Shown here: one piece after another, positions 19,926 to 43,202 of the stretch
Numbering within the stretch: position 1 is the stretch's first letter
How the letters are laid out: the number at the start of each line of letters is the position of its first letter
DNA from: Pectobacterium zantedeschiae
GTDB lineage: Bacteria > Pseudomonadota > Gammaproteobacteria > Enterobacterales > Enterobacteriaceae
NCBI RefSeq assembly: GCF_004137795.1
Contig: NZ_NWTM01000001.1
Coordinates: forward strand, 372,001 to 436,000
Reading direction: 5' to 3'
Length of the DNA stretch: 64,000 nucleotides
Translations under genes and position numbers: made by a program
The notes under the pieces: model-generated
Seen by the model: only the letters and a program-made list of their open reading frames with translations
What the model was told of the DNA's origin: nothing
The model's database searches: none

Positions 19926-20411
19926 GAGGTATATGCACATGAACTGTGCGTGTTCTGCCAGTTAGCGGTGCAAAACATCGTCCTGCGAGGAGTAATGCGC
20001 GGAGTCAATAGCTGTGGGGGAGGTGGTTTCGTGCGCCAAGGATATTGACTCGTTCTCACTGTTGTTGTGCTGTGATGAGCGTAAATAACGCTGAAGAAAA
20101 AACAGGCTTAGGATGAGCGGCAGGGAAGCCGCGAAAGTCGTTGCCGCGCCGGGAGCGCGTCAACGATGGTCCGTTAAAAGACTGTTTTTTATGAAGGTAT
20201 CGCGTAGCGACGTTATTTCTCGCGAAAAAGCCACGGGTCACGGGGCGGCGGCGACTGAGCGCCCCGTGTCGGGCGCGTGCTGCGACATAGCATAGAAATG
20301 GCGATATTCTAGCGCACGAAATTATCACTATAAATTACATGTGGTTATCTGGATTACCATTCACCGCTTGATTAAATAATCCCTCACGTGAATACGCAAA
20401 AGTGTGATAGC
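19926..20411. other. nasR-nasF intergenic region upstream of the sigma-54 promoter
   Basis: Long non-coding stretch. Its middle (20117-20280) is a structured repeat annotated separately. The part from 20300 to 20411 should hold NtrC/enhancer sites for the sigma-54 promoter, but no clear NtrC palindrome was recognised. A 90-codon minus-strand frame here coincides with the repeat and is not considered a gene. Confidence 0.45.
20117..20280 (+). repeat. Structured intergenic repeat, copy A
   Basis: Begins with a GCGGC-AGGGAA-GCCGC hairpin (20117-20132), has CCGTTAAAAG near 20170, and ends with a CACGGGGCG stem around GGCGACTGAG (20240-20268), followed by TCGGGCG. The same arrangement occurs at 42977-43104 with compensatory stem changes. 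Internal hairpins such as CGCGCCGGGAGCGCG are also present. Function unknown. Confidence 0.65.
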
Positions 20412-20463: not shown

Positions 20464-20511
20464 TTTCGGGCCAACGGCGGTGCGGAAGGTGTTAATCGGA
20501 CAACGGCGTCC
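20464..20511 (+). promoter_or_regulatory. Two-hairpin ANTAR target (NasR-binding leader RNA)
   Basis: Two hairpins carry the identical hexaloop AACGGC (A at position 1 and G at position 4, as ANTAR proteins require). P1 spans 20464-20487: stem UUUCGGGCC / GGUGCGGAA with one G-G mismatch. P2 spans 20498-20511: stem GGAC / GUCC. The linker is 10 nt. The P2 loop and 3' arm are the 5' arm of the following terminator, so NasR binding to P2 would exclude the terminator. Structure was drawn by eye. Confidence 0.85.
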
Positions 20512-20557
20512 ATAAGCGTGCAGATTCTGCATGGGCTTGTGGACGCCGTTTTTGTTT
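20502..20557 (+). terminator. Leader terminator controlled by NasR
   Basis: Perfect 11-base stem AACGGCGTCCA (20502-20512) / TGGACGCCGTT (20540-20550) with an inner TGCAG-ATT-CTGCA hairpin, followed by TTTGTTTTT. It lies upstream of nasF inside the leader and overlaps the P2 hairpin, the classic arrangement for antitermination. Confidence 0.9.
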
Positions 20558-20596
20558 TTACCGCCTGAAAAGGCATTTTGCGCAAGGGTGTCGTTG

Positions 20597-42845: not shown

Positions 42846-43202
42846 GTACGGCTAACGAAGTAGAGGCTATGTTGCTGGCTAATGCCGCCGACAAACCTAA
42901 CCTAAATCGTATTGTTCATGGTATTTCCCAGCATGACGTAAAAAATCATGCTGAGGTGAGCATGAACGCCGAGTGAGCGACAGGACGTCGCTGGCGGCTC
43001 GAAAAACGAGCATGGGCATCGAGGGAACCGCGTTAGCGGCATAATTCCCGTTAAAAGCCTGGGTTCTTAGGGCGCTGGCGACTGAGCGCCCTAAGTCGGG
43101 TGTTGCATCAATGCCACAGAAAAATTCTGCTGCCTATCACGCACGAAACCCTCTCGTTTTCTTGCATTGAAATGTGTTCTGCATAGGCCAGACTGCGTGT
43201 AG
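42846..43202. other. Intergenic region holding structured repeat copy B
   Basis: Non-coding stretch between convergent genes. Apart from the repeat at 42977-43104 it shows a CAGCATGA ... TCATGCTG hairpin near 42930-42953 that may act as a terminator for the oxidoreductase gene. No gene was seen. Confidence 0.45.
42977..43104 (+). repeat. Structured intergenic repeat, copy B
   Basis: Begins with GCGAC-AGGAC-GTCGC (42977-42991), has CCCGTTAAAAG near 43048 and ends with the perfect 11-base stem CTTAGGGCGCT / AGCGCCCTAAG around the loop GGCGACTG (43066-43095), followed by TCGGGTG. Both hairpins match copy A (20117-20280) in loop and layout, while the stems differ by paired substitutions. Confidence 0.65.

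Follow-up and report, generated by a model that had tools for sequence, protein, structure and literature searches.

A MITE-like repeat of Enterobacterales with a conserved RNA fold and twin GGA hairpin loops, a candidate CsrA/RsmA site behind genes

Two copies in the window and their family

The window, the whole stretch of 64,000 nucleotides analysed here (G000:C3:372001-436000), comes from a Pectobacterium genome of 5.06 Mb and holds two intergenic copies of a structured element (Table 1). Copy A is flanked by a gene with NIT and ANTAR domains on one side and by an NMT1-like domain gene on the other; the neighbours of copy B are an FMN oxidoreductase gene and, convergent to it, a gene for an enzyme of Cys/Met metabolism. 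The first-pass annotation had placed the two at 20117-20280 and 42977-43104; the sites are right, and the structured cores are longer in both cases. The head hairpins that it described (P3 in Table 1) are present where it put them, as is the tail hairpin with GGCGACTG in its loop (20250 and 43077), followed by TCGGG (20269 and 43096). The second GGA hairpin of the element, P4, is missing from copy B through an internal deletion. The CCGTTAAAAG box, listed as a further shared feature, turned out to be a coincidence, with its two occurrences at non-homologous places (20171, within helix P2 of copy A, and 43048, just before the tail in copy B). Because the copies are only 58% identical (122/211 aligned letters), two sequences alone are thin evidence, and the family provides the decisive test. 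Folded alone, copy A has a stability like that of shuffled sequences (z -0.06), and copy B is more stable than its shuffles (z -3.49).

Two further observations concern the surroundings of copy A. Upstream, at 20029-20039, TTTCGTGCGCC matches the right end of the element in reverse complement and is perhaps the remnant of an older or flipped copy. The leader before the NMT1-like gene (20470-20560) contains hairpins and a T run recognised by eye; together with the NIT and ANTAR domains encoded by the upstream gene, it resembles a nitrate-operon terminator under ANTAR control.

Table 1. Positions of the element's parts in the window.
Feature	Position	Strand	Basis
Copy A, entire structured core	20075-20321	+	Profile match spanning nearly the full length (L031 1348-1594, coordinates converted); R1 20082-20218, 139.1 bits
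Copy A, helix P1, 5' strand AAATAACG, partner 20211-20218	20083-20090	+	Helix 1: 5/5 pairs changed on both sides in the family; outer AAA/TTT pairs read off the sequence
Copy A, helix P1, 3' strand CGTTATTT	20211-20218	+	Helix 1 covariation
Copy A, hairpin P3 (GCGGC AGGGAA GCCGC), first GGA loop, GGA 20124-20126	20117-20132	+	Helix 5
Copy A, junction GAAA facing TGA (20114-20116)	20133-20136	+	TGA/GAAA conservation in copies not chosen by pattern
Copy A, hairpin P4, second GGA loop CGGGA, GGA 20152-20154	20137-20167	+	Helix 6
Copy A, hairpin P5 (TCGC GTA GCGA)	20200-20210	+	Helix 7
Copy A, tail hairpin P6, GGCGACTG in loop	20239-20268	+	Helix 8; both-side change in 6/8 pairs
Copy A, helix P7 closing the 3' domain, TCGGGCGC 20269-20276 with GCGCACGA 20312-20319	20269-20319	+	Helix 9; outer pairs invariant and so uninformative for covariation
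Copy B, entire core, P4 and GAAA junction deleted	42931-43149	+	L029 1446-1664 (converted); R1 42942-43047, 80.2 bits; alignment
Copy B, hairpin P3 (GCGAC AGGAC GTCGC), sole remaining GGA hairpin of the pair	42977-42991	+	Alignment
Copy B, hairpin P5 (CCGC GTTA GCGG)	43028-43039	+	Sequence and alignment
Copy B, tail hairpin P6, CTTAGGGCG / CGCCCTAAG	43066-43095	+	Sequence, fold and alignment

The family was traced by three routes. BLAST with one copy from the genome of the window as query gave 35 matches, which fall into 31 places in that genome, one of them weak, once pieces are joined by hand. A DNA pattern of the head hairpin, which fixes the GGA of P3, TGAG and GCGAAAG, matched at least 115 stretches; the 80 pattern loci listed come from Pectobacterium, Brenneria, Dickeya, Samsonia, Serratia, Yersinia, Winslowiella and one Rhodovastum metagenome-assembled genome. 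The last was taken as a chance match, since the covariance model scores it at only 15.9 bits (E 0.094). This model, R1, covers the central 137 positions and was built from 35 training rows, which include copy A (as L031) and exclude copy B. The check proposed for the two copies, a search with a covariance model, was thus carried out with a family model: R1 finds both (copy A, E 1.1e-32; copy B, E 6.3e-18) and nothing else in the window up to E 1. Extended to related genomes, as had also been proposed, it detects the element at E 1e-8 in 59 of 295 sampled genomes and 34 of 154 genera of the GTDB family. At 1e-5 it does so in nine of 148 genomes of the order, five inside the family and four outside, the four being weak (42.6-50.8 bits); these searches scored 11 or 22 candidates per genome, so that the copy numbers from them are lower bounds. 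The genome of the window alone has the element in about 30 places. Chance similarity is excluded.

The copies differ in length by numbers not divisible by three, and 26 of the 146 have a module inserted; on these grounds of length a coding role was rejected. An origin in phages, plasmids or E. coli was likewise rejected, because distant blastn with one copy found no match in those collections; copy B by itself gave none in plasmids. At gathering thresholds Rfam has no match in the window, and this includes Ysr224 (RF02770, cut-off 70 bits), a family considered below. No description of the element was found in the literature searched, which is mainly open-access and leaves most subscription papers outside. 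PMC2267715 makes no mention of Pectobacterium, Erwinia, Serratia or Photorhabdus, and in the accessible part of PMC5193452 ERIC and YPAL appear only as plot features. The element is real and widespread and, as far as this literature reaches, undescribed.

Fold and strand

Structure was assessed on alignment A2, which holds 49 of 53 representatives less than 88% identical to one another (alignment A3 holds 35 of the 49). The RNAalifold consensus of the 49 copies has 57 pairs, arranged as a long-range helix P1, a long and variable P2, the hairpins P3 and P4 of a three-way junction, P5, the tail hairpin P6, and P7. Of 2785 cells, 96.5% are paired, compared with 83.9% after shuffling; 38 of the 57 pairs change on both sides (26.8 in shuffles), double-change cells number 385 (108 +/- 9.5 in shuffles), and the covariation score is 0.418 (0.172 in shuffles). 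None of 500 shuffles reached the observed value in any measure, and the signal collapses once the partners are slid by one to three columns. The two controls differ in kind: shuffles lose relatedness, whereas slid controls keep it but favour the structure derived from the same alignment. The head-hairpin pattern supplied 38 of the 49 rows and thereby fixed part of P3. In the 11 rows that it did not choose, 31 of 53 pairs differ on both sides between standard pairs, and 26 copies from the genome of the window alone give a strong covariation term. The earlier proposal that structure is under selection, and not merely copied along, is supported by this compensatory change across the family. A hammerhead ribozyme, whose core TGA...GAAA resembles, was also considered and rejected because the letters just before it take part in covarying pairs (columns 55-56 with 115-116).

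The same proposal had left RNA and single-stranded DNA as alternatives, between which the strand asymmetry of the changes discriminates. A transition in a G-C pair is equally likely to produce G-U or A-C, and an RNA made from the plus strand tolerates only G-U. Counted over 53 of the 57 pairs (omitting 57-114, 39-137, 44-132 and 230-266; pair 57-114 is U-G in 46 of 49 copies), G-U cells exceed A-C cells by 58 to 20 in the 49 copies (counted by pair, 17 against 6; P 0.035 in a sign test), by 182 to 40 in 146 copies, and by 61 to 17 among the 51 copies that the pattern did not supply. This large excess of G-U over A-C cells favours RNA over single-stranded DNA, with the plus strand as the one that folds. 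Fold energy is also lower on the plus strand in 43 of the 49 copies, and the consensus fold is better on it. Taken alone, the statement that the element is a structured plus-strand RNA is very probably correct.

Twin GGA loops and related RNAs

Each of the two junction hairpins displays a GGA in its loop, in the form A(N)GGA in P3 and NNGGA in P4. The P3 triplet is present in 145 of 146 copies, but 93 of the 95 copies fetched by the pattern fit a pattern that requires it, and the conservation of P3 and the junction is therefore partly by construction. Among the 51 copies not chosen by pattern, the P3 GGA is found in 50 (and in 23 of those 24 among the 51 that show no fit to the pattern), the junction TGA in 49 and GAAA in only 38. 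The P4 GGA was demanded by no search pattern; of the 120 copies that carry no insert in this loop, 117 have it. Because this triplet, free of pattern bias, holds, confidence in the reading as a whole is unchanged. All 10 alignments listed of 16 R1 matches have GGA in both loops, and six of those loci had been fetched by the pattern. The unpaired loop of P6 is conserved as well, which counts against a reading centred on CsrA.

P4 is also where a hairpin-rich module of about 73 bp resides in 26 of 146 unique copies (L170, L098 and L028, for example). In the 25 copies listed of the 26 it lies in the apical loop of P4, and 20 of these 25 keep the GGA beside it. Since L166 and L170 have cores that are 99.6% identical and differ by this module, it evidently comes or goes on its own.

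CsrA sites have GGA in a loop and occur two per dimer at a spacing that the dimer can span. The twin loops of the element, whose GGA triplets start 28 nt apart in copy A, match this design, and CsrA binding is predicted on that basis; the genome of the window has one csrA-type gene (92.4 bits). One copy of the element in this genome directly follows the 3' end of a gene (L028 1881-3134, minus strand) that NCBIfam matches best to the BarA sensor kinase, below the cut-off of that model and from a 418-aa piece (497.8 of 890 bits). BarA stands above the Csr system, and the location may be due to chance.

The closest described RNA is TwoAYGGAY (RF01731), which, like the element, combines a closing stem with two adjacent GGA hairpins. 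Searched across the genome at E up to 10, its model returned three matches, all under the cut-off of 43 bits. The best two (35.1 and 34.5 bits) fall inside R1 copies at C3:119931-120067 and C5:15887-16023, and a Ysr224-like repeat lies at the place of the third (E 2.73). The L011 match, of 34.5 bits, has an E value of 0.076 in 40 kb and 0.00061 in 321 bases and is the only match to its clan, CL00106, in eight copy-bearing loci; as a control, one of 14 control genomes gave a sub-threshold match. The link is stronger in another genus: both R1 matches in L254 (69.8 and 31.7 bits) coincide with RF01731 matches above its cut-off (49.2 and 52.8 bits). With L256 (37.5 bits, below cut-off), two of seven R1 loci match RF01731 at E 0.1. 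Judged from these alignments of models and copies, the element is a diverged relative of TwoAYGGAY in a mobile, flipping, high-copy form.

Several features set it apart. The element's loops are looser than AYGGAY, it has an additional 3' domain (P5-P7), and its copies in the genome of the window score below 43 bits. Tandem G-A pairs have been reported for TwoAYGGAY in the accessible part of PMC4333381; in the element, TGA and GAAA flank P3, and in copy A GAAA 20133-20136 and TGA 20114-20116 may form such a tandem G-A in the three-way junction. High copy number, flipping and placement at 3' ends go unmentioned for TwoAYGGAY in the accessible parts of PMC4333381 and PMC2864571. The former gives its function as unknown and proposes that it binds CsrA, and the latter, in the part available, lists it as a probable RNA. 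RsmY belongs with TwoAYGGAY to clan CL00106, and the RsmY match of copy A (cmscan, 21 bits, cut-off 57, E 0.0028) is, like the TwoAYGGAY matches in this genome, below cut-off. CsrB/RsmY-type RNAs, described as sponges in the accessible part of PMC4333381, have GGA hairpins in common with the element. In contrast to them, the element has two conserved GGA hairpins and is dispersed and mobile rather than confined to one locus, and copy A scores weakly as RsmY.

Other repeats were compared in the same way. ERIC, YPAL/RU-2 and further enterobacterial MITE-like repeats are, in the accessible accounts, likewise small mobile intergenic repeats that have been likened to MITEs. RU-1 to RU-3 measure 127, 168 and 103 bp in the accessible part of PMC2759123, compared with about 250 bp for the element core. 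A link to sRNAs in 3' UTRs of P. atrosepticum is no more than a lead: of the 15 described, eight are 237-255 nt long and several are labelled TPP/isrH (PMC4710047, part accessible); none of 30 flank proteins scanned in the genome of the window, seven of them without a family, is a parent gene named there. Next to one copy, L015 867-1053 matches a C4 antisense RNA above its cut-off (67.2 bits), and an isrK match close to the cut-off accompanies it, which suggests a prophage.

Turnover, placement and interpretation

The element is not fixed at its sites. At the copy-B locus, between the same two flanking genes, it is forward in the genome of the window, G003, G010, G017 and G023 and inverted in G001, G013 and G022, and seven more genomes have partial inverted copies following that left gene. 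After each other, the inverted copies in G001 and G013 most resemble forward copies of the same locus (96.4-96.7%), and that of G022 reaches 86.5%; the inverted copies are most simply explained by a flip in place. The metF locus, compared in 25 genomes, has 10 forward copies, eight inverted ones (some partial) and five genomes without a copy and without a matching left flank, G021 being left out. G016 retains a right-end remnant, G001, G003 and G014 have other sequence behind a different left gene, and G015 has an apparently decayed end, judged by eye. Because the copies there belong to at least three lineages, and that of the genome of the window is nearest to a copy from another locus (L010, 94.3%), copies appear to be replaced or re-inserted. 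In these comparisons the element shows dispersed copies with turnover at orthologous sites, as a MITE does.

Ysr224 (RF02770, Yersinia sRNA 224) takes part in this turnover. In other species it occupies the element's place at two gene ends, those of the yhgN locus (G003, G007, G012) and the mltB locus (G003, G023), with 74.8-83.3 bits against a cut-off of 70; by this distribution (L212-L216) it behaves as a repeat that alternates with the element. R1 at E 0.1 has no match in L212 and L214, the two loci searched of five of the Ysr224 type. The reverse complement of the strand that Rfam models has two GGA hairpin loops; the modelled strand lacks them. Ysr224 is among the most frequent sRNA families when every instance is counted, according to the accessible part of PMC9029176.

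Among close orthologues (nine loci whose same-site copies have 91% identity or more), variation affects 29 paired positions, of which five are compensated, nine change to or from G-U only and 15 are mismatched. Unpaired stem changes, which the first-pass annotation had named as counting against selection on structure, are thus found in part, within close orthologues. About half of the changed pairs are broken there, so that the spreading lineage seems to bear most of the constraint, though the constraint may act on some copies only or be weak, with resident copies decaying.

These observations bear on the most serious alternative, a plain MITE- or ERIC-like DNA repeat whose structure matters only as DNA, in a cruciform or as transposase ends, and whose RNA fold is a by-product. 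Inversion and turnover at shared loci and the decay of resident copies agree with it, and so do the inverted ends of some copies, such as CTGTCTCTTAGTCAC.../...GTGACTAAGAGACAG, which we take to be reminiscent of Tn5-type ends. MITEs of the IS4/IS50 type have terminal inverted repeats with a 9-bp target duplication. No clean empty site was found among the metF-locus genomes compared, so no target duplication could be deduced, and none was recognised by eye at the copy ends inspected. An exact end-sequence pattern for an autonomous transposon hit 12 sites in 11 of 25 genomes, none of them in the genome of the window. The excess of G-U over A-C cells in the 146 copies is unexpected for DNA, and a DNA repeat has no role for the GGA loops or the likeness to an RNA family. 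It is an unlikely explanation, if the least unlikely of the alternatives. Separately, two loci of Pectobacterium aroidearum (L071 4038-5057 and L112 1844-2863, both on the minus strand) have a gene for a 339-aa transposase, presumably of the IS110 family from its appearance, inserted in the P6 loop at an identical point (model position about 199-204). G006 (L209) is broken at the same P6 position, with about 1.2 kb extra.

Placement was counted for 107 copies with a profile length of at least 150 and 700 nt on both sides, using a simple ORF caller (at least 90 aa), keeping orthologues in and ignoring an ORF that overlaps the element in 36 of the 107. Sixty have convergent neighbours, 43 tandem ones (26 sense, 17 antisense) and four divergent ones; in the genome of the window the numbers are 14, 13 (seven sense, six antisense) and 0. 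The core starts a median of 56.5-58.5 nt behind the co-directional stop codon. Between tandem genes the orientation bias is weak, and since flipping is tolerated as well, the element is ill-suited to an indispensable role in cis at each site.

About 30 copies per genome, each with up to two GGA loops and placed in either orientation, could instead act in trans, as a free small regulatory RNA or CsrA sponge with its own promoter; clan CL00106 does include CsrB/RsmY-type sponges (PMC4333381, part accessible). Such an RNA would hardly be limited to two conserved GGA hairpins per copy or hug the 3' ends of genes as the element does, and no terminator T run was recognised by eye at the 3' ends of copies A and B. 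We consider it improbable, somewhat more so than a DNA repeat. An element that stabilises mRNA 3' ends or ends transcription, its folded tail shielding upstream messages and its GGA triplets incidental, would account for strong hairpins behind stop codons and between convergent genes, yet it would presumably need neither two GGA loops nor a compensatory long-range P1 where simpler hairpins suffice, and it is very doubtful.

The reading we favour, and hold to be probable on balance, is that of a mobile, MITE-like RNA element that places a twin CsrA/RsmA site in 3' UTRs. Comparison of sequences supplies the family, its RNA fold and plus-strand bias, the twin GGA loops, the likeness to TwoAYGGAY, the placement at 3' ends and the flipping and turnover. 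The remaining steps are conditional. As a non-autonomous, MITE-like element of Enterobacterales, with a structured core of about 250 bp and short, often decayed terminal repeats, the element sits just behind genes and would therefore ride along as the 3' tail of an mRNA or as a stable 3' fragment. In the plus-strand RNA, the long-range P1/P2 stem closes a three-way junction from which two hairpins display A(N)GGA and NNGGA, with P5, P6 and P7 following as a 3' domain. A CsrA/RsmA dimer may bind the two loops, and binding may alter the fate of the host mRNA or titrate RsmA. The structure would be kept mainly by helping the element to spread or to be tolerated.

A bolder version, which we regard as a long shot, casts the element as a bacterial analogue of SINEs, a parasitic non-coding RNA that propagates by way of RNA, or of an RNA-guided step, and lives in 3' UTRs with its twin CsrA/RsmA site. 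Selection on the lineage that spreads would maintain its fold, and resident copies would decay. If so, tens of mobile CsrA sites per genome would rewire the Csr network, swapped for Ysr224 at the same gene ends.

The covariance model R1 can be used for annotation. If the favoured reading, a MITE-like element with a twin CsrA/RsmA site, is correct, the TwoAYGGAY motif could be studied experimentally on the tens of natural variants that one genome holds, and the element and Ysr224, as separate repeat families, would share a twin-GGA design at the same loci. CsrA/RsmA sites are central to the control of virulence and lifestyle in these bacteria, and a mobile element would be dealing such sites out to the ends of many genes.
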